A stretch of DNA of 52,349 bases from Pseudomonadota bacterium (lineage in GTDB: Bacteria > Desulfobacterota > Desulfobulbia > Desulfobulbales > JAGXFP01). The first letter of the stretch is position 1, and the number at the start of each line of letters is the position of its first letter. Below, in pieces: positions 1,479-26,258 of this stretch. The position numbers and the translations under genes are program-made. The notes beneath the pieces are model-generated. The model had not been told where the DNA came from, searched no databases, and was given only the letters and a program-made list of their open reading frames with translations. Where the stretch lies: assembly GCA_018814305.1 (NCBI GenBank), contig JAHJAA010000070.1, positions 1 through 52,349 on the forward strand. Reading direction: 5' to 3'.

Positions 1479-2084
1479 ATGGCCGGAATCCGAGAAACAA
1501 AAAAGCTGCAAACCCGCCAGGCAATCATCGATGCGGCGGTGAAGCTCTTTCCCCGCTACGGATTCGAACTGACCAGCGTCGACCAACTGGCCCGGGAAGC
1601 CGGAATCGGCAAAGGCACCATTTACGGTTATTTCAAGACCAAGGACGAGATCTTTTTCGCCTTTTGCGAGGACGAGATCGACTATGTATTCAAGGCTCTT
1701 GCCAAATCGAATAACCGGCAGGAACCACTTCTAGAACAGCTCCATACCCTTTTCATGGGGCAGTTCCGCTATGTGACCCGGAATCGTGAGTTCGGCCGAA
1801 TCCTGGCCAGGGAGATGCTCTTTCCCAAAGAGGCCAACAAAGGCAAATGCCGGGAATTAGAGGAGCGATATCTGGCCGCCTTGGGTACCATTCTCGACCG
1901 GGCCGTCACCCGGGGAGAACTCCGGGCCGACCTGGAGCAATATTTCACCGTTGGTCACTTCTATGCCCTCTATCTTTTAATCCTATCCAGCTGGTATGAT
2001 GGACGTCTTCAGAGCGAAGAGGCCATTGAAGAAGCCTTACGAAAACTCCTGGAGCAGGCCATGGGAGGCCTGGCCCCACGTTAA
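1479..2084 (+). CDS. TetR/AcrR family transcriptional regulator
   Basis: A 201-residue DNA-binding repressor type. Residues 10-60 form the TetR helix-turn-helix, with the hallmark stretch GIGKGTIYGYFKTKDEI; the rest is the helical ligand-binding and dimerisation domain, variable in sequence. GGAGA stands five bases before the ATG. It is the first gene of a run that continues with the adaptor, pump and outer-membrane channel of an RND efflux system on the same strand, so by known practice in this family it probably represses its own operon until an efflux substrate binds. A dyad overlapping the predicted promoter (1415-1430) is a candidate operator. The ligand cannot be predicted. Confidence 0.9.
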   Translation: MAGIRETKKLQTRQAIIDAAVKLFPRYGFELTSVDQLAREAGIGKGTIYGYFKTKDEIFFAFCEDEIDYVFKALAKSNNRQEPLLEQLHTLFMGQFRYVTRNREFGRILAREMLFPKEANKGKCRELEERYLAALGTILDRAVTRGELRADLEQYFTVGHFYALYLLILSSWYDGRLQSEEAIEEALRKLLEQAMGGLAPR

Positions 2085-2150
2085 ACTTGCCTTGCCATCG
2101 GTTACAAGTGGCGAAGACCATAACCAATGACTGAAAATGAGGAAATGAAT

Positions 2151-3302
2151 ATGCAGGATACGGAAATACGCCCCACAACTCCACGGGCGAAGATCGTCAA
2201 ACTGATCTGGGGGGCTCTCCCCTCTGTGGCGCTGATTGGACTCATTATCCTGATCTTCGGCCTCTTCGCCCAAATCAAATCTAAAAAGACCCAATTGGAA
2301 GAAGAGCAGGCCAAGGCCCTGGCCACAGGGCGCCCACCAGTCAACGTGGTGCTTCTGGAAATCCAACCCCGCGAAATCAGTGACCGACTCAACCTGCCCG
2401 GGGTCATCGAACCGTGGATCGATCTGGAATTACTCTCCAAGATCAACGGGGCCATCATTGAGGTCCCGGTCAGGGAAGGTGATCGTCTGACCAAGGGAGA
2501 GGTCATCGCCCGGGTCGACCAGGAAGATTACCGGATTGCTCTCGATGCAGCCGATTCCGCCGCCAAACTGGCCGTTGCCAACCTGGACCGAACCCGCTCC
2601 CTGTTCAAAAAAGGCCTGACCCCACAGGCAGAACTCGACGCCATGGAGAACCAGGTCCAAACGACTCGGGCCGCTCGGGATAACGCCCAACTGATGCTTT
2701 CCCGCTGCACCATCACCGCCCCGACCTCCGGGGTGATCCGGCGGCTCGACGCCAAGATCGGCCTGCAGTTGAACAACGGTGATCCCATCGCCCGAATCCT
2801 GCAGATCGATAAAGTCAAGGGGGTGATCGGAATTCCTGAATCAGATGTCACCAGTGTCGCCCGCCTCGACCAGGTGACTCTGACTCTGCAAGCCCTGGAC
2901 AATCGGACGATCATCGGCACCAAATATTTCCTGGCCTCTTCACCGGAAAACCTGGCCCGGCTCTACAACCTGGAACTGGCCATCGACAATCCCGATCGAT
3001 CAATCCTGCCGGGCATGTTCGTCAAGGCCGACATCATCAAACAGCAGGTGCCTGACGGTTTGTCAGTCCCCCTCTATGCCATCCTGACCAGAAACGGTGA
3101 CCGATTCGTCTATATCGATCAAGATGGAATCGCCCACCGCCGCCTGATTGAACTGGGGATCACCGAGGACTGGCGAGTCCAGATTACCAAGGGTCTTGCG
3201 GCCGGAGACCGGGTCATTGTTGAAGGACACCGCGGGGTGGAGGAAGGACAAGAGCTTAATATCGTCAAAGTTCTTACCGACAATGGGGAGTTTGACAGAT
3301 GA
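2151..3302 (+). CDS. RND efflux periplasmic adaptor (membrane fusion protein)
   Basis: The periplasmic adaptor linking an inner-membrane RND pump to a TolC-type channel. After a short cytoplasmic tail there is one membrane segment (WGALPSVALIGLIILIFGLF). It is followed by the split biotinyl/lipoyl-like domain (INGAIIEVPVREGD ... TITAPTSGVIRRLD) flanking a short helical hairpin with the TRSLFKKGLTP region, then beta-barrel and membrane-proximal domains ending in GLAAGDRVIVEGH. The start at 2151 is preferred because GAGGAA lies six bases upstream; ATGs at 2127 and 2145 are in the same frame. The gene ends overlapping the pump gene by four bases (ATGA), indicating coupled translation. Substrate unknown. 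Confidence 0.93.
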   Translation: MQDTEIRPTTPRAKIVKLIWGALPSVALIGLIILIFGLFAQIKSKKTQLEEEQAKALATGRPPVNVVLLEIQPREISDRLNLPGVIEPWIDLELLSKINGAIIEVPVREGDRLTKGEVIARVDQEDYRIALDAADSAAKLAVANLDRTRSLFKKGLTPQAELDAMENQVQTTRAARDNAQLMLSRCTITAPTSGVIRRLDAKIGLQLNNGDPIARILQIDKVKGVIGIPESDVTSVARLDQVTLTLQALDNRTIIGTKYFLASSPENLARLYNLELAIDNPDRSILPGMFVKADIIKQQVPDGLSVPLYAILTRNGDRFVYIDQDGIAHRRLIELGITEDWRVQITKGLAAGDRVIVEGHRGVEEGQELNIVKVLTDNGEFDR

Positions 3303-6300
3303 TTGTCTCCGATACTGCCGTCGATAAAAGCACCACGGTCATGGTACTGGCCGCCATCATCCTCGCCTTCGGGACATACTGTTATAACGCCTTGCCCCGA
3401 GAGAGCGCACCTGATATCACCATTCCCTACGTCTTTGTCAGTGCCGATTACCGGGGGGTCTCCCCCGCCGACGTGGAGACCTCCATCACCATTGAGATCG
3501 AAAAAAAGCTCAAAGGAATCGATGGGGTTAAAAAGATCCATTCGGTCAGTTCCGAAGGGCTCTCCACAACCAGTATCGAGTTTGTTACCGGGATCGATAT
3601 CGACAAGGCCCTCCAGGATGTCAAAGACAAGGTGGACGAGGCGAGAAACGATCTGCCCTCTGATCTGGAAAATGACCCCACGGTCTTTGAAGTCAACTTT
3701 TCCGAAATGCCCATTGTGGTCTTCTCCCTTTCCGGGACCTGTGGCCTTGCCACCCTGAAGGAGATTGCCGATGATCTCAAGGATGATATCGAGGCGATTC
3801 CCGGGGTGCTAGAGGCGGTGGTGACCGGTGGACTCGAACGGGAAATCCGGGTCGAGGTGCTGCCCGAAAAACTCGCCTATTACGGGATCTCGATCCCGGT
3901 GTTTCAGCAGATCGTCGCCAGCGAAAATCAAAACACCTCAGGCGGTGCCTTGCGCCTGGGTGACGGCCGCTTTCAGTTGCGGGTTCCCGGTGAATTCAAA
4001 ACTCCATCCGAGATCTACGGCCTGGTCATGGGGACCCATAACGGCCAGCCAGTCTATCTGAAAGACCTGGCCGAGGTAGTCGACGGATTCAAGGAGGAGA
4101 CCAGCCGCTCCCGCCTTGACAGCCGCAGCGCCGTCAATATTTCGGTAAAAAAACGATCCGGAGAAAACATCATCGCCATCACCGACCAGTTGGATCAACT
4201 CCTGATCAAAAGCGAAAAGACTTGGCCCAAGGGCACCGAGATTACCAAGGTCATGGATGCAGCCAAGGACATCCGGGCCATGGTTGCAGACCTGGAAAAC
4301 AACATCCTCACCGGTCTGGTCCTGGTGGTTGTAGTACTGCTCTTCTTCTTGGGTCTCCGCAATGCCATCCTGGTCAGCATGGCGATCCCCTTTTCCATGC
4401 TGCTCTCCTTTACCGTCCTCTATATCATGGGCGTGACCCTCAACATGGTGGTGTTGTTCTCCCTGACCCTGGCCCTGGGTATGCTGGTGGATAACGCCAT
4501 CGTCATCGTGGAAAACATCTACCGCTACATGGAACAGGGGGTCCCGCGATTTGATGCGGCCAAGCGAGCAACCTCCGAGGTCGCCTGGCCGGTGATCGGC
4601 TCGACGGCCACCACCCTGGCCGCCTTCTCGCCCATGCTCTTCTGGCCGGGCATCATGGGTGAGTTCATGGGATATCTCCCTTTGACCCTGATCGTCACCC
4701 TCTCCTCCAGTCTCTTTGTTGCCATGGTGATTAACCCGGCCCTGGCCGCGGTTTTTATGAAAACCAATTCGACCACCAGCCAATCAAACAAAAGGCTCAG
4801 CGCCGAACAGATCACCGCCGCCGGTGAAAATCCCATAGCGATCCGGGGCTGGTTTCTGAAAATCTATACAGCCTCGCTCCGCTTTTCCATCCACCGCCCC
4901 CTGGCAATGGTCGGCATCGCCTTTGCCTGCCTGATCCTCCTCTTCCAGGTCTGGATGCTGGCAGTCGGCATCGAAAAACCGGTGGAATTCTTCCCGGACA
5001 TCGATCCCAAATCCATCTATGTCAATGTCGACACGCCCGAGGGGGCGGATCTGGATTATATCGATAGGATTTTGCGGCGCATCGAAATGGCAGTGGCCGG
5101 AGTCCCGGAGCAGGATCTCTACCAAAAGGCCGAGGAGCATGACGCCTATATCGAGGCCATGGCCCCTAAGGAACACCAAAAACTGACCGGAAAAAATTTC
5201 TTCGGGCCCAGCGACCTGGTCAATATCAAAGACATCTATATCAAGGCGGTCAGTACCTCCGGGGGAGGATCGTCCTTTGAATCCAATTCCCCCAACCACG
5301 TGGGCATCCAGTTCATCGATATCGAGGAACGAAATACGCCCACCCCGGAAACAGTCAAGACAATCCGTCAACGGGTGAAGAACATCCCCGGCGGCAAAAT
5401 CACCGTAGCCATGCAGGAAGAAGGCCCACCCACCGGGTCACCGATCAACATCGAAATCGCCGGGGATGATTTCCAGGTTCTCGGTACCATCGCCAAGGAG
5501 ATCCGTAACTATCTGGCCAAACTGCCCTCGGTTGAGGATATCAGGGATGATTTCGTGGAAGGGACTCCCTCGGTCAAGGTCCTGGTCGACCGCCAGAAAG
5601 CGGCCTTATTCGGCCTGACCACCGACACCATCGGCTTTGCCCTGAAGACGGCCTATAACGGTCTTGAAGTCTCCTCGTTCCGGGAGGGCGATAAAGATTA
5701 TGACATTACCGTGCAACTGAGGGAGGCAGACCGACGGGTAACCGATGTCCTACGAGAGTTGATGGTCCCCACCATGAGCGGCCAGATGGTCCCCCTTTCC
5801 ACCCTGGCGACCGTCGAATTCAGTGGCGGTCTCGGGGATATCGTTCGGATCGACAACCAACGGGTGGTGACGGTCAAGGCCAATGTGGATGAGGCCAAGA
5901 TCCCTGGACCGGTGGCCCGAGCCCAGGCGGAAAAACTCCTGGCCCAGGTTCCTCTGCCCCCAGGGTACTCCATTCGCTTCACTGGCGAAAATGTTGAGCA
6001 GGCTGAATCCCAGGCCTTTTTGAGCAAGGCATTCATCATTGCCTGCTTCCTGATCTTTCTGATCCTGGTCAGCATGTTCAATTCGATTTCCCAGCCGTTT
6101 ATCATCATGACCTCGGTTATCCTCTCCCTGGGCGGCGCCTTTCTTGGATTAGCCATTTTTCGGCAACCTTTCGGCATCATCATGACCGGGGTTGGGGTTA
6201 TTTCGCTGGCGGGGGTGGTGGTAAATAATGCCATCGTCCTGATCGATTACACCAACAAACTCCGGGTACGGGGGATGGAATTAAAAGAAGCGGTGATCGC

Positions 6301-18554: not shown

Positions 18555-20168
18555 ATGAACACGTTGTGTTTACTAAAAACTTGTCTTGGCAACCCTTTGA
18601 AATCCATCAACACTAAGTTCATTCTGATCGCGCCCCTTACCGGAGGCATCCTCCTCCTGACGTCACCGGGAATCGGTTTCGCTTCTTTGGCCTGGTTTGC
18701 CCTGGTGCCACTTCTGGCCCTGATTCGCTCACCTCGGATAACCGCCGGGAAAGCATGTGTGGTCGGATTTGCCACCGGCATGATCTATTTCACCTTTCTC
18801 CTCTCCTGGATTACCATCGTTCTTGGCCATTACGGCCATCTGCCGTTATGGATTACCATTCCCGCCTTGATAGCCTTGGCCTCATACATGAGCCTCTACC
18901 CCGCCATTTTTTCGTATCTCACCGCCCGGACCAGGGACACCGTCCCTCTTTTCTGGTTTGCCCCACTTCTTTGGGTCGGTCTTGATGCTTTGCGAAATCG
19001 GGCTTTTTCCGGATTCCCTTGGATGGATTTGGCCTATACCCAATATAGTCATCCGTTTCTCATTCAAGTTGCAGATCTGGCTGGCCATCACGGAGTTACC
19101 TTTTTGATCGTCATGGTGAATTGCCTGATTATCGAATTTTCATACGGCATGAATGGTCGCAAGCGTACCCAGCGGCCGTGGCCTCTGATTGCGGCAGTGG
19201 CCCTCGTTCTTCTGGCTATGGTTTACTCCCCATGGCGCTACCGGGAAATAAACAACCAACTGGCAAAGAATCCGACCATGTCCGTGGGAATCATCCAGGG
19301 GAACATTGCCCAAGGCCAGAAATGGCGCCCGGAAATACAGTTGGAAACCCTGGACAAGTACCTCAGCCTCTCAAGGCGGCAGCTGGCCGCTTCACCCGAG
19401 ACTGATCTCTTAATATGGCCGGAAACGGCACTCCCCTTCTATCTGCAGACTTCATCCCTGACTAAGTTTATCCGGGTGCTCACCGAGGCGCACCCGGATC
19501 TTGCGGTATTGACCGGGGCACCTCGACATGCTCTGGATCCGTCCGGCACAGAGATTCGCTATTACAACAGTGCCTTTCTCATCGATGACCAGGGCCTGAT
19601 CAACGACCGTTATGACAAACGGCACCTGGTTCCCTTCGGCGAGTACATCCCCATGAAGCCATTGCTTCCGTTCCTTGGCCCCCTGGTAGAGTCGGTGGGT
19701 GATTTCACCCCGGGAACCAGCCATTTGCCCATTATCCACAACACCACCCCGATCGGGGTGCTGATCTGTTTCGAATCCATCTTCCCGGAACTGGCCAGAA
19801 CCCAAAGCGAGGCCGGGGCCAAATTACTGGTCAACCTCACCAATGATGCCTGGTTCGGCCTTTCCGGCGCACCCTGGCAACATCTCTCCATGGCAGTCTT
19901 CCGGGCCGTAGAGAACCGCCGAGGACTCGCCCGGGCAGCCAATACAGGCATCAGTGGCTTCATCGATCCCTTGGGCAATTTATCCCAATTATCGCCGCTC
20001 TTCGCAGACTTTAGTGCAACGTCAACGCTCCCCGTCATGGCCGAGAAGACCTTCTTCACCTTCTTAGGCGGCCATTATTTCGGATTTATTTGTCTTTGCC
20101 TGGCGACCATTATTTGTGTATATGACGGGTACCTTCGTAAAAAACGAATCATAATCATTCATGCATAA
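18555..20168 (+). CDS. lnt: Apolipoprotein N-acyltransferase
   Basis: Inner-membrane enzyme that adds the third acyl chain to the N-terminal Cys of lipoproteins, needed for their export to the outer membrane. The 537-residue protein has about six N-terminal membrane helices, a nitrilase-like periplasmic domain and a final helix. The catalytic triad is visible: Glu290 in WPETALPFY, Lys355 in YDKRHLVPFGE and Cys405 in LICFES, with the spacing of the E. coli enzyme (267, 335, 387). The start lacks an obvious Shine-Dalgarno; the first hydrophobic segment begins about 20 residues in, so the chosen ATG is reasonable. Several lipoproteins in this window would be substrates. It is followed 11 bases later by prfB. 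Confidence 0.94.
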   Translation: MNTLCLLKTCLGNPLKSINTKFILIAPLTGGILLLTSPGIGFASLAWFALVPLLALIRSPRITAGKACVVGFATGMIYFTFLLSWITIVLGHYGHLPLWITIPALIALASYMSLYPAIFSYLTARTRDTVPLFWFAPLLWVGLDALRNRAFSGFPWMDLAYTQYSHPFLIQVADLAGHHGVTFLIVMVNCLIIEFSYGMNGRKRTQRPWPLIAAVALVLLAMVYSPWRYREINNQLAKNPTMSVGIIQGNIAQGQKWRPEIQLETLDKYLSLSRRQLAASPETDLLIWPETALPFYLQTSSLTKFIRVLTEAHPDLAVLTGAPRHALDPSGTEIRYYNSAFLIDDQGLINDRYDKRHLVPFGEYIPMKPLLPFLGPLVESVGDFTPGTSHLPIIHNTTPIGVLICFESIFPELARTQSEAGAKLLVNLTNDAWFGLSGAPWQHLSMAVFRAVENRRGLARAANTGISGFIDPLGNLSQLSPLFADFSATSTLPVMAEKTFFTFLGGHYFGFICLCLATIICVYDGYLRKKRIIIIHA

Positions 20169-20179
20169 GGAGAACCACC

Positions 20180-21275
20180 ATGTCCGTTGAACTGAGACAA
20201 AAACTCAACGACCTCAACAAGAGAATGCTTGCCCTACGGAGTCATCTTTGAATTAGATGAAAAGAAAGAACGATTGACCGAACTGGAACAGATGAGTCTG
20301 GCCCCCGGGTTCTGGGACAATCAGGAGAAGGCCACCATCATTCAGAAGGAACAGGGACGAATCCAGGGTCAGATAGAGGTCTGGGAGAAGTGTAATACCG
20401 CCCTGGAAGATGCCTTGATCATGCTGGACCTGGCCGACGAAGAAGACGACGAGGCCACCACCACTGAAACGGCGAAACTGATAGCCGATCTCGAAGAGCA
20501 GATTTCCGACACTGAGTTGGAATGCATGTTCACCGGTGAGCACGATGGCAACAATGCCATGTTGACCATTCATGCCGGCGCCGGCGGCACCGAAGCCCAG
20601 GATTGGGTTAGTATCTTGCTGCGGATGTACTTACGTTGGGCGGAGCAGCAGGGCTTCCGAACCGAACTCCTTGACCAGCTTCCTGGCGATGAAGCTGGGA
20701 TCAAGAGTGTAACGATCATGATCACCGGACGAAATGCTTATGGGTTATTACGCTCCGAAATGGGCATCCACCGCCTGGTCCGCATTTCGCCATTTGATGC
20801 CAGCGGGCGACGGCACACCTCTTTTGCCTCGGTTTTTAACTTCCCCGAACTTGATGATGATATCAAGGTTGATATCAACGACAAAGATCTACGAATCGAC
20901 ACCTATCGGGCAAGCGGGGCAGGGGGGCAGCATGTCAACAAGACCAGCTCAGCCATCCGGATTACCCACCTGCCGACCAATATCGTCGTTCAGTGTCAGA
21001 ACGAGAGAAGTCAGCATCGGAACAAGGACACGGCTATGAAGATGCTTAAAGCCCATCTGTACGAGAGAGAAAAACGGCTGCAGAAAGAGTCACAGCAGAC
21101 CCTGCACGGTGATAAAAAAGAAATCGGCTGGGGTAGCCAGATCCGATCCTATGTCATGCAACCCTACCGGTTGATCAAGGACCATCGGACAAATCTGGAG
21201 ATCGGTAATATCGACAGTGTGATGGACGGTAACCTGACCCCTTTCATCAAGGCCTACCTGTTGTGGCAAAGATAA
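20180..21275 (+). CDS. prfB: Peptide chain release factor 2, with programmed +1 frameshift
   Basis: RF2 reads UGA and UAA stop codons and triggers release. The ATG at 20180 follows AAGGAGA. The first 23 codons (SVELRQKLNDLN...) run to CTT at 20246-20248, where the next triplet in that frame is TGA (20249-20251). A +1 shift continues at GAA (20250) into ELDEKKERLTELEQ and the rest of the protein, giving 364 residues, as for E. coli RF2 (365). The anticodon-mimic SPF tripeptide (RISPFDASG) and the catalytic GGQ (SGAGGQHVNKT) are present. It lies 11 bases after lnt and is followed by a strong terminator. Callers that ignore the shift would start it late, at a TTG near 20229. Confidence 0.97.
20235..20251 (+). 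promoter_or_regulatory. prfB autoregulatory +1 frameshift site
   Basis: The slippery CTT (20246-20248) is followed directly by TGA, and a Shine-Dalgarno-like CGGAG (20237-20241) lies four bases upstream, as in the E. coli site where AGGGGG precedes CTTTGA. When RF2 is scarce the ribosome pauses at UGA and shifts, restoring RF2 synthesis. The fourth base is A rather than the more efficient C. Confidence 0.93.
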
Positions 21276-21318
21276 TTGTCCATTCGAAGATCCTCTTTTT
21301 TCGTTAAAGATCAAGGTC

Positions 21319-21368
21319 AAACAAGCAGTTGCCGCACGGCGGACCAAGCCAGGCAACTGCTTGTTTTT
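21319..21368 (+). terminator. Rho-independent terminator after prfB
   Basis: A perfect 15-base stem, AAACAAGCAGTTGCC (21319-21333) with its complement at 21352-21366, an 18-base loop, and the downstream tail TTTTTCTT. Ends the corC-lnt-prfB side of the region before the Fe-S protein gene. Confidence 0.85.
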
Positions 21369-21482
21369 CTTAATCTTGTAAAAACTCAGCCCCTCTCAGT
21401 GGCAACAATACGCTACCATCCTTATGGTTTTCGATATTCGGGTCAAAAAAACCATTATACCTGATGGAGCCCCAGCACCTCA

Positions 21483-22817
21483 ATGGGTCATCCAGGTAAC
21501 CGATGCCCTTCCCAGATGAATGATGAGCAGCCTGTGCCCAAAGAATATCCATACAAAGAAGGGCTTCCGACCGCCCCCCCCTTCCCGGCGGAAAGTCAAC
21601 GTTGTGCCAAATGCGGCGCCTGCACCTCGGTTTGTCCGGTCGCAAAGATCACCGGCAATGAGGCCCATACCGCCCGGGGGAGGATGCATCTCCTGGGCAA
21701 ATTAACCGACCACAAACATTCCGAGGCCTTTCTCGATATTGTTTCAAAATGTTTGCTCTGCGGGGCCTGCACCGCCGTCTGCCCACGTGAAATCAATCAT
21801 CCCCGATTGGTGGCTGAAGCACGACACAAGGCATCATCCCTTTTTGGGCCGAGCTCCTTCCGCTCCTTCCTGGCCCTCAAGACCCTTGCCCATCCCAATC
21901 TGCTCTCTGCGGTCACCAACCTGTTTAAACTTTCATCCGAATTCCGCAACAACCTGCCTCCTGACAGCGGGCTTCGCATCAAACTTGGCATTCCTTCCCC
22001 GCAAGGAACTTCTTCACCGACTCCCCACTCACTATCAACGCCGGCACATAAACCGGACATCCTGATCTTCAGCGGTTGTCTGGCCCACCACCTCACGCCA
22101 GCAATCGAACAGACGACGGCCGCTCTCGCCTCCACCGCCACCGGGGAAACAGTCCACCGTCCCGACCAGCAGGGTTGTTGCGGCCTCGCTTCCTTCTCCG
22201 CAGGAGATCTGGCTGTGGCCCGCCGCCTAGCCCAAAAAAACATCACAGCCTTTGCCGACCACCCCCAAACTCCAATTTTAACCCCTTGCGCCTCATGCTA
22301 CAGCCATCTTCATTCATACCCGGATCTTTTCAAGGATGACCGCGAATGGCTGTTTAAGGCAAAAGCCTTTTCCGAACGCGTCAACGAACTCTCCACCTTC
22401 TTGATGCCGCGCCTCCCCCCCCTCATGAGGCAAAACGCCCTGACCACCCCACCCCTATCTCTAACCGTGGTGTACCATGACCCTTGTCACCTCAAACACC
22501 GCAAGGAGATGGCAACCATTCCCCGGCGTCTCCTGGCAATGACCCCCGGCATCAATTTACAGGAACTCCCCCATGGCTCTCAATGTTGTGGCCTGGGGGG
22601 ACTCTTTCACCTTAACCACCAGGATCTCTCCCAGCGGATCGCCGAATCACTGCTGGCCGAGATTTTAGAGGCCCGGATCGATAGAATAGTGACCTCCTGT
22701 TCCGGGTGCCTGATCCAATTTCACCGACTGTTGCCCCCTGACGGCAGGACCAAGGCCATCCATCTTGCCATGTTACTGGCCCACCACCTCCCCAGTGAAA
22801 GAGAGGCCTTCCGTTGA
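21483..22817 (+). CDS. GlcF-like iron-sulfur oxidoreductase subunit
   Basis: A 444-residue cytoplasmic or membrane-associated electron-transfer subunit. Two 4Fe-4S motifs come first: CAKCGACTSVCP near residue 41 and CLLCGACTAVCP near residue 90. Two cysteine-rich (CCG) domains follow, seen as SGCLAHH ... QQGCCGLAS ... CASCYSH and YHDPCHLKHR ... SQCCGLGG ... SCSGCLIQ. This layout matches GlcF of glycolate oxidase and the electron-transfer subunit of D-lactate dehydrogenases. Usually an FAD subunit (GlcD-like) is adjacent, but none is seen here, so the partner is unknown. No clear Shine-Dalgarno precedes either in-frame ATG (21483 or 21516). Specific substrate not assignable. Confidence 0.85.
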   Translation: MGHPGNRCPSQMNDEQPVPKEYPYKEGLPTAPPFPAESQRCAKCGACTSVCPVAKITGNEAHTARGRMHLLGKLTDHKHSEAFLDIVSKCLLCGACTAVCPREINHPRLVAEARHKASSLFGPSSFRSFLALKTLAHPNLLSAVTNLFKLSSEFRNNLPPDSGLRIKLGIPSPQGTSSPTPHSLSTPAHKPDILIFSGCLAHHLTPAIEQTTAALASTATGETVHRPDQQGCCGLASFSAGDLAVARRLAQKNITAFADHPQTPILTPCASCYSHLHSYPDLFKDDREWLFKAKAFSERVNELSTFLMPRLPPLMRQNALTTPPLSLTVVYHDPCHLKHRKEMATIPRRLLAMTPGINLQELPHGSQCCGLGGLFHLNHQDLSQRIAESLLAEILEARIDRIVTSCSGCLIQFHRLLPPDGRTKAIHLAMLLAHHLPSEREAFR

Positions 22818-22835
22818 TTTTCGAGAACCGAAAAT
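22817..22835 (+). terminator. Short AT-rich hairpin after the Fe-S protein gene
   Basis: ATTTTCG (22817-22823) and CGAAAAT (22829-22835) form a perfect seven-base stem around AGAAC directly at the stop codon. There is no T-tract, so termination is only possible, not shown. Confidence 0.3.
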
Positions 22836-22846
22836 TATCTTCCGAC

Positions 22847-22874
22847 TTGCGGAAACCCCCTGAGTCGCTATAAT
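22847..22874 (+). promoter_or_regulatory. Candidate sigma70 promoter for the DsbA-like selenoprotein
   Basis: TTGCGG (22847-22852), a 16-base spacer and a perfect TATAAT (22869-22874), about 155 bases upstream of the start at 23031. The leader between holds no recognised element. Confidence 0.5.
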
Positions 22875-23030
22875 AATTACCGTTTGTTTTTCTTTAAATA
22901 GATACTGCTTCGTTCGACGACCTATGGGCCGTTCCTCCAAGACCGGCCCCAATCTTAAAGAAAGGGCACCCATCGAAGGACCTGTCCTGGCCGTTATGCC
23001 TCTTTCATTCACTATAAGGAGACCTTGTTC

Positions 23031-23891
23031 ATGAAACACCTTTTCGGGATCTGCCTGCTCACCCTCATGGTGAGTATCCCCTGCCTGGCTGAAGCCGAAA
23101 TCAACTCGCAGCAGACCAATGAGTTGAAACTCCAAAGCTCTCCCCTCGACCTGGCCGTTTCGTCTGATGGCGAAAGGGTTTTCGTACTAAACGAAGGAGG
23201 CAAACTCCAGATCTATTCCAATGAGGGAGAATTAAACGACACCATCGAAGTCGACCCTGCCGTCGACAAAATTTCCACCACTGGCGATGGCGGAACCGTC
23301 TATCTGAGCAGCAGGACGAACAAGACTATTCAGGAACTGCAGATCGAGTTTCTGGTTAATCTTGACATTTCCGGGTCACCTTTCCAAGGCCAACAGGACG
23401 CCCCGGTGGTCCTGGCCTTTTATAGCGACTTCCAATGACCGTACTGCGCACGGCTCTCGCCGTTATTCGAGCAGGTGCTCGAAAAAAACCCCAACACCGT
23501 CAAAATCGTTTATAAAAACTTCCCCCTGAGCAGTCATCCCTTGGCCATGCCCGCCGCCAAAGCTGCAATGGCTGCGCATAACCAGGGTAAATTCTGGGAA
23601 TTCCATGATCGACTTTTTGCAGATACCCCGCTGAACAACGATAAAATCAAGCAGATCGCCGTTGATCTGGGATTGGACATGGACCGTTATGAAAAGGACA
23701 TGAACAGTCCTGCTGTCCAGCAATTAGTGATCAGGGATCTCCGTGAGGGACAGGACGTGGGCGTTCGGGGAACACCCACCCTCTTCCTCAACGGCGCCCC
23801 AGTAAAAAATCGATCCCCTGCCGGTATCCAGGAAATGATCGATACTCAATTGGCAAAACGTGAAGCACGAAAAACGTCAAGCGAGAAATAG
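23031..23891 (+). CDS. Secreted DsbA-like thioredoxin-fold protein, predicted selenoprotein (in-frame TGA as Sec136)
   Basis: Read through the TGA at 23436-23438, the gene encodes 286 residues. A signal peptide (LFGICLLTLMVSIPCLAEA) is followed by about 90 residues resembling beta-propeller blades (LDLAVSSDGERVFVLNEGG). Then comes a DsbA-type thioredoxin fold: FYSDFQ-[TGA]-PYCARLSPLFEQ, KIVYKNFPLSSHP, and the cis-Pro loop GVRGTPTLFLNG. The TGA sits exactly where the first Cys of the CPYC catalytic motif belongs, and both sides share one frame, so selenocysteine (UPYC) fits better than decay. A hairpin downstream could be the SECIS. The ATG at 23031 follows AAGGAG. Predicted periplasmic thiol-disulfide oxidoreductase. 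The alternative is a point nonsense mutation or sequencing error. Confidence 0.82.
23439..23483 (+). promoter_or_regulatory. Candidate bacterial SECIS element
   Basis: Directly after the in-frame TGA, TTCGAGC (23466-23472) and GCTCGAA (23477-23483) form a perfect seven-base stem with the loop AGGT, which holds the G-rich loop feature needed by SelB (E. coli fdhF has AGGUCU). The loop starts 35 bases after the TGA, near the far end of the range described for bacterial SECIS elements. A second perfect hairpin, ACGGC/GCCGT around TCTC (23450-23463), lies closer but has no G in its loop. Folding has not been computed. Confidence 0.5.
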
Positions 23892-23929
23892 CTCGACGTC
23901 CCATAATGTTCAAAATAAAGCAGAAACAA

Positions 23930-23963
23930 ACCAAGGCTCTGTCTGGATAGACAGAGCCTTGGT
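23930..23963. terminator. Perfect hairpin after the selenoprotein gene
   Basis: ACCAAGGCTCTGTC (23930-23943) pairs perfectly over 14 bases with 23950-23963 around a six-base loop. On the plus strand there is no T-run after the stem; the A-rich left flank would give a T-rich tail on the minus strand. It probably limits read-through between the selenoprotein and phoH genes. Confidence 0.6.
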
Positions 23964-24072
23964 CCTCTCTGGGCCAAGGGATAAGACTCCCTTTTCTCCA
24001 GGATTTTCCGGACGGACGGCAAAACTTTTTTTACCGCTCGCTTCCCGGAACCCCCACCACGGAGACCGCCCC

Positions 24073-25062
24073 TTGACTGACACCACTCTTCATTTCGACA
24101 ATAATGACGCCGCCAAACAGCTATATGGAGAACTTAACCGAAATCTGGCCATCCTGGAAAGCGGACTTGATATCACCATCAGAGCACGCGGGACCGACAT
24201 ATCGCTCTCCGGAGCCGAGCACAACCTGGAAATTGCCGTAAGGGCACTCAACCAGCTTTATGAAATGATCCTGTCCGGCTACCCCGTTTACCAGCAGGAT
24301 TTTGCCTACGCCCTCAGAATCCTCAACCAGACCCCCACCGCCAATCTTAAAGCGCTCTTTCAGGACCAGGTCTTCATCTCGGCCAACAGCGGGGTGATCA
24401 CCCCCAAAAGTATTAATCAAAAAAAATACATCGAGGCCATTCGGAACCATGACATCGTGTTCGGGATAGGTCCTGCCGGCACCGGCAAGACCTATCTAGC
24501 CGTGGCCATGGCCATTGCCGCATACACCGCCAAACAGGTTAAATCGATTATTCTGGCCCGCCCAGCGGTGGAAGCAGGGGAGCGCCTGGGCTTTCTACCA
24601 GGTGACATGGCCCAGAAGGTCAATCCCTACCTGAGACCACTCCAAGACGCCTTAAATGATATGCTTGGGATGGAAAAAACCGCTTCCTTGATCGAAAAAG
24701 GCACCATTGAAATTGCCCCGCTTGCCTTCATGCGAGGGAGGACACTGAACAATGCCTTTGTGATTCTTGACGAGGCCCAGAACACGACCCGGGAGCAGAT
24801 GAAGATGTTTTTGACCCGACTCGGTTTTTATTCGCGGGCAGTTATCACTGGTGATATCACCCAGGTAGACCTTCCTGACCCCAAGGGTTCCGGCTTGATC
24901 CACGCCGGAAATATCCTTGCTAAAATCAAGGGGATCAATTTTTCTACATTCACTGAAGCCGATGTGGTTCGGCACCCCCTGGTCCAACAGATTATCCTGG
25001 CCTATGGCAAGGAGACCAATCAAAACCCCGGGCAAAAACCGGGTGGCCGTTCAAATCATTAA
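24073..25062 (+). CDS. phoH: PhoH family ATPase
   Basis: A cytoplasmic P-loop ATPase of 329 residues, family of PhoH/YbeZ, linked to RNA metabolism and ribosome maturation. The N-terminal 100 residues resemble a KH-like RNA-binding domain (GTDISLSGAEHNLEIAVRAL). Then Walker A GPAGTGKTYLAVA, LARPAVEAGERLGFLPGD, Walker B FVILDEAQN, and ITGDITQVDLP. The TTG at 24073 is taken as start because GGAGA lies seven bases upstream and similarity begins there, although the frame stays open further upstream. It is followed 23 bases later by ybeY, its usual partner in the PhoH-YbeY pair. Confidence 0.93.
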   Translation: MTDTTLHFDNNDAAKQLYGELNRNLAILESGLDITIRARGTDISLSGAEHNLEIAVRALNQLYEMILSGYPVYQQDFAYALRILNQTPTANLKALFQDQVFISANSGVITPKSINQKKYIEAIRNHDIVFGIGPAGTGKTYLAVAMAIAAYTAKQVKSIILARPAVEAGERLGFLPGDMAQKVNPYLRPLQDALNDMLGMEKTASLIEKGTIEIAPLAFMRGRTLNNAFVILDEAQNTTREQMKMFLTRLGFYSRAVITGDITQVDLPDPKGSGLIHAGNILAKIKGINFSTFTEADVVRHPLVQQIILAYGKETNQNPGQKPGGRSNH

Positions 25063-25085
25063 TTTTTCACCCAAAGGACATCCCC

Positions 25086-26258
25086 GTGCCCGTCCTCATT
25101 CGCTCTGAAACCACCGGTCCTTCCCGCGTGTCACTTGAAGCTCTCCATGTCACTGCGGAAACAATCATGCGAATCGCTGCCCTTTCAAACAATGAACTCA
25201 GCATTCTCCTGGTCAATGACCCTCAAATGCAAGAGCTCAACCTAAAATTCCGCGGTAAAGACCAACCGACCAATGTTCTCGCCTTTCCCATGGATGACAT
25301 TACACCCGATTCCCCCGATCCAGGGATTTTGGGCGACATCGTCATCTCCGTGGATACGGCGGGCCGGGAGGCAGCGGGCCGCTCAATCACCTGCCATCAA
25401 AGAATTCAACGACTCCTGATCCACGGACTTGTCCATCTGATGGGCTACGACCATGAACGATCAGAAGAAGATGCCTTTTTGATGGAACGGGAAGAAAACA
25501 AAATCATCCTTGAACTCAATCGACAGCAAAGGAGACAACCAATGATTCAACTGGCAATCAATGTTGATCATGTCGCCACGATCCGACAGGCCCGCGGCGG
25601 GAACGAACCCGATCCAGTGACTGCAGCCGGGATTTGCGAACTAGCCGGCGCCTCAGGTATCGTGGTACACCTGCGGGAGGACCGCCGCCACATCCAGGAC
25701 CGGGATGTCCACCTCCTCCGACAGTTGGTTAAGACCAAATTGAACCTTGAGATGGGGGCTTCCGAGGAAATTATCCGAATCGCCCTGGCCGTTAAACCGG
25801 AGATGATCACCCTGGTTCCGGAAAAGCGGAAGGAGTTGACCACCGAAGGCGGCCTTGATGTGGCCGGGCAAATAAAAAAATTGTCCGGGGTTGTCGCCAG
25901 GATGGAGGAGGCCGGAATCCCGGTGTCCATGTTCATTGATCCCGATTCACGCCAGATAGCCGCAGCCGTTAAGGCCGGAGCAGCCTTTGTTGAGATTCAT
26001 ACCGGGCGGTACAGTGATGCAACCAGCGAGGAAGAGATCAACCGGGAGTTTGACCTCATCGCCTCAGCGGCAGAGGAGGCCTATGAAGCGGGATTGAAAG
26101 TGAACGCCGGCCATGGCCTCAATTACTTGAATACCAAGAGAATCGCCGGGCTGGCCACCATCGAGGAACTTAGTATCGGGCATGCAATCATGGCTCGGGC
26201 AATTTTTGTAGGGCTGGAGCAGGCGGTTCGAGAGATGCGCTCTTTGCTCGGACCATAA
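25086..26258 (+). CDS. ybeY-pdxJ: Fused YbeY rRNA-maturation endoribonuclease and PdxJ pyridoxine 5'-phosphate synthase
   Basis: One open frame of 390 residues encodes two unrelated enzymes. Residues 1-150 are YbeY, with the metal-binding motif HGLVHLMGYDH (His113, His117, His123), a UPF0054 endoribonuclease for 16S rRNA processing. Residues 153-390 are a complete PdxJ (start IQLAINVDHVATIRQARGG, then GIVVHLREDRRHIQDRDV, NAGHGLNY and EELSIGHAI), which makes pyridoxine 5'-phosphate. No stop separates them, but AAAGGAG (25528-25534) stands seven bases before the Met153 ATG at 25542, so free PdxJ may also be made. The first start is GTG with AAAGGA upstream. Both domains keep their key residues. 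Confidence 0.9.
   Translation: MPVLIRSETTGPSRVSLEALHVTAETIMRIAALSNNELSILLVNDPQMQELNLKFRGKDQPTNVLAFPMDDITPDSPDPGILGDIVISVDTAGREAAGRSITCHQRIQRLLIHGLVHLMGYDHERSEEDAFLMEREENKIILELNRQQRRQPMIQLAINVDHVATIRQARGGNEPDPVTAAGICELAGASGIVVHLREDRRHIQDRDVHLLRQLVKTKLNLEMGASEEIIRIALAVKPEMITLVPEKRKELTTEGGLDVAGQIKKLSGVVARMEEAGIPVSMFIDPDSRQIAAAVKAGAAFVEIHTGRYSDATSEEEINREFDLIASAAEEAYEAGLKVNAGHGLNYLNTKRIAGLATIEELSIGHAIMARAIFVGLEQAVREMRSLLGP

Follow-up and report, generated by a model that had tools for sequence, protein, structure and literature searches.

The gene on the plus strand at 23031-23891 of the window (the whole 52,349-nucleotide stretch of DNA that was analysed) very probably encodes an exported DsbA-like selenoprotein, a periplasmic thiol-disulfide oxidoreductase in which Sec136 would be the nucleophile and Cys139 the resolving residue. 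We place the probability of this reading at about 90%. An earlier note on this DNA had proposed a selenoprotein here, and the proposal is supported by the sel genes of the genome, by a column in the relatives that alternates between TGA and Cys codons, and by the conservation of the half of the protein encoded downstream of the TGA. In many genomes of the order, gene callers would be expected to split the gene or omit it.

The reading frame and codon 136

The ATG at 23031 is preceded by a well-placed Shine-Dalgarno-like sequence, AAGGAG (23016-23021, plus strand), and the sole stop in its frame ahead of the TAG at 23889-23891 is a TGA at 23436-23438 (codon 136). When the TGA is read as U the product has 286 residues in a frame shared by the orthologues, and the active-site context becomes ...FYSDFQ-U-PYC-ARLSPLFEQ..., with Sec136 at position 1 of a U-P-Y-C motif according to both the translation and the column in relatives. 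The TGC at 23445-23447 encodes Cys139, the putative resolving partner and, by count, the sole Cys of the mature protein. The earlier note's description of the TGA, in frame and in place of the leading Cys in a CPYC motif, is borne out, and both halves belong to one domain. The note had also predicted that gene callers would produce pieces of 136 and 138 residues. The second figure is correct, as the downstream ORF under table 11 has 138 aa with a GTG start at 23475, which lies 3' of Cys139 so that the active site is absent from that product; the first figure is not, as the standard code gives 135 residues from the ATG at 23031. The 137-aa ORF of the ORF listing uses an upstream TTG start instead of this ATG.

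Orthologues were searched for in 58 genomes, in 258 genomes of the order, in 395 of the phylum and in a scan of GTDB contigs, and about 240 loci were retrieved and read. In 224 aligned relatives, mostly from the Desulfobulbales, codon 136 is TGA in 83, TGC in 94 and TGT in 47, and in 19 loci added from other orders of the phylum it is TGA in 13 and TGC in 6; no other codon was found at this column in either set. The comparison with relatives that had been suggested as a check thus showed TGA or a Cys codon aligned exactly with codon 136, and conserved sequence beyond it. The recurrence of TGA at the same codon, followed by the same class of hairpin, indicates that the TGA is not a chance stop. 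Protein conservation extends through the half past the TGA in at least 95 orthologues with TGA, whose identity falls to about 40%. The gene neighborhood is shared by both forms: phoH follows directly 3' and in the same orientation in 13 relatives with Sec and 31 with Cys, and a gene for an Fe-S protein lies 5' of the family member in 9 with Sec and 25 with Cys.

Additional genes were observed in the course of this comparison. One genome (G635:C1:1927668-1929438) carries tandem family members, the first with the TGA and the second, presumed to be a Cys form, without an in-frame stop. A DsbA-like paralogue of about 200 aa (L231, G006:C21) has a TGA at the motif Cys (DFQ-U-PHC) and no AGGU hairpin, and similar short paralogues with an in-frame TGA occur in G013, G020, G026, G036, G049 and G051 (29-36% identity, L231 included). 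These short paralogues are possibly a second DsbA-like selenoprotein family.

The SECIS element

The hairpin downstream of the TGA, UUCGAGC-AGGU-GCUCGAA (23466-23483, plus strand), is a bacterial SECIS element as judged by folding, conservation and covariation. It has a stem of 7 bp, a loop AGGU that starts 34 nt past the UGA, and a folding energy of -9.1 kcal/mol. The bSECIS model consists of a loop of 3-9 nt with a G within its first two positions, located 16-37 nt past the UGA, a stem of at least 4 bp and an MFE of -7.5 kcal/mol or lower (PMC13188914). The window hairpin has all of these features, with the G at the second loop position, and a simple form of the model describes 76 of 83 TGA forms versus 12 of 134 Cys forms. 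Of 82 full-length TGA forms, 81 retain at least six of the seven pairs, versus 10 of 90 Cys forms; in shifted registers at most one TGA form reaches six. Among 95 TGA forms, each of pairs 2-7 is present in 93-95 sequences, compared with 56 for the outermost pair; 85 have the loop AGGU and 10 have AGUU.

Covariation was determined from alignment cells in which both sides of a pair had changed. There were 23 such cells versus a shuffle mean of 9.1, and none of 500 shuffles reached as high a value. With the phylum set added, both-sided changes occur at pairs 1, 3, 4 and 6 (for example G-C to C-G, A-U or U-A), and the phylum set itself contributes changes from G-C to both C-G and U-A. The coding sequence carries the same signal: the codons GAG CAG GTG/TTG CTC are used by 73 of the 75 TGA forms that encode the peptide E-Q-x-L, and many of the Cys forms that encode the same peptide use other codons. 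This codon choice indicates that the RNA, and not the protein alone, is conserved.

The window hairpin scores 71.6 bits (E 7e-25) against a SECIS model of the family, a value that is descriptive since the sequence is part of the model. The next matches in the genome score 17.2 and 16.3 bits and lie outside credible TGA-containing frames, so the model recognises this one gene family and is uninformative about the rest of the selenoproteome. No RNA family of Rfam matched at the hairpin, whether the whole window or 20000-25200 was scanned.

Selenocysteine machinery and the reading of UGA

The genome was searched for sel genes, as had been proposed, and selA, selB, selD and a tRNA-Sec are all present. 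selA lies on contig C70 (624 bits); selB was matched at 356 bits, and the standard selB is on contig C10 (639 aa). selD, matched at 384 bits, is present in two copies. One copy (L233, G000:C18:28023-28952, with a single in-frame TGA) is, from its sequence, probably a selenoprotein as well, and the TGA-free SelD is on contig C19. The best tRNA-Sec of the genome scores 59 bits, compared with 70-78 bits for the tRNA-Sec of relatives, and the standard tRNA-Sec of the organism may be missing in an assembly gap. ARAGORN found no tRNA in the window.

Contig C19 also carries a second selB with an unusual tRNA-Sec, the one of 59 bits, immediately 5' of it (locus L235, minus strand; SelB frame at 1937-4012, about 640 aa when started past the tRNA; tRNA-Sec at 3887-3979). 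The cluster holds HgdB/HgdC-like, HesB-like, DsbC-like, YedF-like and SelD genes; it may represent a second, independent Sec system, or the contig may be a contaminant. A genome among the relatives (G211) has two tRNA-Sec genes, of 70.6 and 58.7 bits. The standard SelB is likelier than the C19 SelB to serve the DsbA-like gene, given that family members throughout the order share this SECIS. In G163, G164 and others, selA was not found at E 1e-80 despite a tRNA-Sec, and G163 has the TGA form; in single-contig assemblies the missed selA perhaps reflects broken reading frames. Release factor 2, encoded by prfB, stops at UGA, and the CUU-UGA site of programmed +1 frameshifting in its gene is classical. 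In the window (20180-20260) prfB apparently starts at the ATG at 20180 with a CUU-UGA site at about 20247-20252, and the ORF listing picks prfB up only from a TTG in the shifted frame.

Several other explanations of the TGA were considered. The assembly is a draft of 92 contigs, in which a TGC or TGT of an ordinary Cys-containing DsbA gene might have been misread as TGA; this is very improbable, as the hairpin that follows is intact at the score given above and is mostly absent from Cys forms, TGA is found in all four genomes of the same family, and a conserved, covarying SECIS hairpin is not something that a base error could produce. Elsewhere in this genome TGA serves as an ordinary stop, for example in the upstream Fe-S gene, which it terminates at 22815-22817, and the window gene might be a pseudogene or a truncated gene with a genuine stop. 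We give this as little credence as the base error, since the downstream half is conserved at the protein level in the TGA orthologues and the window gene contains no other stop. The termination of the neighboring gene in TGA also speaks against genome-wide recoding of TGA to an amino acid such as Trp or Gly. Recoding is further contradicted by a column that alternates with Cys codons only and by the Sec machinery of the genome, and its probability is negligible.

Protein architecture

The protein begins with a hydrophobic stretch that appears on inspection to be a signal peptide (residues ~1-22, 23031-23096, plus strand; predicted helix 4-14). The catalytic DsbA/Thioredoxin_4 domain comprises residues 116-285 (23376-23885, plus strand) by Pfam and by the structure model. 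The matches to Thioredoxin_4 (PF13462, residues 116-271, E 2e-24, 86.9 bits versus a cut-off of 23.2) and to DSBA (PF01323, residues 128-256, E 9e-24, 84.7 bits versus 25.6) both span the TGA codon in the full-length product. An AlphaFold2 model of the full protein was built from 67 family members and has a mean pLDDT of 95.1. The best PDB match of the modelled catalytic domain is 3gyk (Z 22.3, rmsd 2.0 over 167 residues), followed by BdbD (Z 21.6), alpha-DsbA2 (21.2) and ScsC (20-21), and the model and its PDB matches have the helical insertion, the CxxC at a helix start and the cis-Pro of the DsbA family.

Thr248-cisPro249 (23772-23777, plus strand) faces the active site in the model. The family alignment shows no variation at C139 or P249, in agreement with the earlier claim of an intact cis-Pro, and position 136 is always C or U. 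G-T-P occurs at the cis-Pro site in 175 of 180 relatives; in the other 5 the search pattern was not matched. Each of the 82 full-length TGA forms contains just one Cys in its mature part, which leaves Sec136 and Cys139 as the sole residues able to form a redox pair. Some family members differ in the two residues that separate the redox positions, with U-L-Y-C (L205, L229), U-A-Y-C (L253, L257), U-P-G-C (L255, L261), C-A-F-C (L137) and C-T-Y-C (L202), and this variation should tune the redox potential.

Between the signal peptide and the catalytic domain, residues 38-104 (23142-23342, plus strand) are predicted to form a two-blade beta-propeller fragment of seven strands. Modelled alone, this fragment has a pLDDT of 90.7 and matches two blades of YVTN/WD40 propellers in Foldseek and VIA (best VIA Z 10.4). 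It superposes on 1l0q with an rmsd of 1.7 over 70 columns, and a phmmer match to 1l0q covers residues 31-100; the comparison with 6r5x gives TM 0.60/0.71 and an rmsd of 1.6.

Proposed mechanism and role

We propose that SelB would direct Sec insertion at the UGA through the SECIS hairpin and that the product would be exported to the periplasm by its predicted signal peptide. Sec136, as the first residue of a CxxC-type motif in a DsbA fold with a cis-Pro, would attack and Cys139 would resolve, the U-P-Y-C motif cycling as a selenenylsulfide/selenolthiol pair. Disulfides would be exchanged with periplasmic substrates, as the fold, motif and cis-Pro suggest. Two blades are too few for a closed ring, and the blades probably assemble with a partner or among several copies of the protein, which could hold several DsbA domains together in the manner of the trimeric isomerases ScsC, BcfH and alpha-DsbA2.

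A DsbB-family gene is present in the genome (contig C82, 41.7 bits) and a VKOR was not found there; the DsbB-family gene marks an oxidising pathway and does not imply a partner of the selenoprotein. Together with the U-P-Y-C motif and the presence of BdbD among the best structural matches, it makes a plain DsbA-type oxidase recycled by DsbB a credible but less probable alternative to a shuffling role. It is established chemistry that a selenenylsulfide has a lower potential than a disulfide, which argues against a strongly oxidising role. Additionally, the protein has an extra N-terminal blade domain and has Thr, not Val, before the cis-Pro, as in ScsC (PMC8900818). By analogy with trimeric ScsC (PMC8900818), the Thr-cisPro and the N-terminal fragment lead us to lean tentatively towards a shuffling, isomerase-type role over plain oxidation. 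A more elaborate version, in which three or four subunits self-associate into a six- or eight-blade ring hub and the family constitutes a selenium-dependent isomerase that toggles between Sec and Cys, is speculative and on balance doubtful; if true, a ring-shaped propeller hub would present several selenocysteine DsbA domains.

The UGA sits 20 residues into the DsbA domain, beyond the separate domain of residues 38-104, and the gene might on this account have two products: a secreted 135-residue propeller fragment, perhaps with a role of its own, at low selenium and the read-through protein when selenium is plentiful. This is improbable, as no conservation signal specific to the short product was found, and the short form is out of reach for the Cys orthologues, which make up over half of the family.

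Exchange of Sec and Cys within the family

Why some proteins retain selenocysteine where cysteine seems sufficient is a long-standing question, and this one orthologous locus supplies many natural Sec/Cys contrasts for comparison. A tree of 172 full-length members was built by a quick method with query positions 134-153 (the active site and SECIS) left out; the Sec/Cys label changes 25 times on it, and at least 15 changes are forced by well-supported branches. A careful tree of a 74-row subtree gives 14 changes, a number that holds throughout the bootstrap range, of which 12 are forced. At least 12 Sec/Cys exchanges have occurred in this 74-gene subtree, a parsimony count that is blind to gain versus loss and to which gene replacement may contribute.

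The closest contrast is between L201 (Cys) and L221 (Sec), which are equal at 813 of 873 aligned positions (93% DNA identity), carry TGC and TGA, respectively, at codon 136, and have each retained the SECIS hairpin. Five Cys forms in all (L014, L137, L145, L201, L209) retain hairpins very like those of the TGA forms, which from the sequences looks like recent loss of Sec. Three genomes with such leftover hairpins (G126, G136, G211) still have selA and a tRNA-Sec. Loss of selA as the cause of the Cys forms was considered and is unsupported as a rule because of these three genomes, and because a selA search at E 1e-80 came up empty in several genomes that do have a tRNA-Sec and TGA forms. A comparison of pairs such as L201/L221 would be a direct test of the benefit of Sec in a disulfide enzyme.

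Comparison with known systems

DsbA-like (PF01323) and DsbG-like (NF041057) selenoproteins with UxxC motifs have been catalogued, and their functions are largely uncharacterised (PMC1794560, PMC2398784, PMC9312934, PMC13188914). The window protein is a further member of this kind, and the earlier remark that DsbA-like selenoproteins had been noted before is confirmed by the UxxC forms catalogued (PMC1794560, PMC2398784, PMC13188914). Among these, DsbA-like form 1 (GOS 'DsbA 1'; Desulfovibrio, Anaeromyxobacter and Desulfotomaculum) is described from Deltaproteobacteria and marine metagenomes (PMC1794560, PMC2398784, PMC13188914) and likewise has a DsbA fold and a UxxC motif with Sec first; the cited portions of its descriptions make no mention of a two-blade N-terminal fragment or of dense Sec/Cys exchange. 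The DsbG-like Rcas_1661 type (NF041057) shares a Thioredoxin_4-type domain, the UxxC motif and selenoprotein status. The window protein scores 71.4 bits against the NF041057 cut-off of 190 and so falls outside that family; it has no clear lipobox, and the catalytic domain alone aligns (107-256).

The trimeric isomerases ScsC, BcfH and alpha-DsbA2 resemble the window protein in the catalytic domain (Z 19-21), the Thr-cisPro and the possession of an N-terminal extension. The trimerisation part of ScsC is alpha-helical (PMC8900818), whereas the extension of the window protein is modelled as all-beta propeller blades, and the ScsC family has an active-site Cys in place of Sec. No scs genes adjoining the window gene were seen at the locus. 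The structure 6r5x is an 8-blade ring of four 2-blade fragments, and the window protein, modelled as a single chain, matches the fragment only. What goes beyond the published descriptions, in the parts of them cited here, is the combination of propeller blades with a DsbA domain and the dense exchange of Sec and Cys at one locus.
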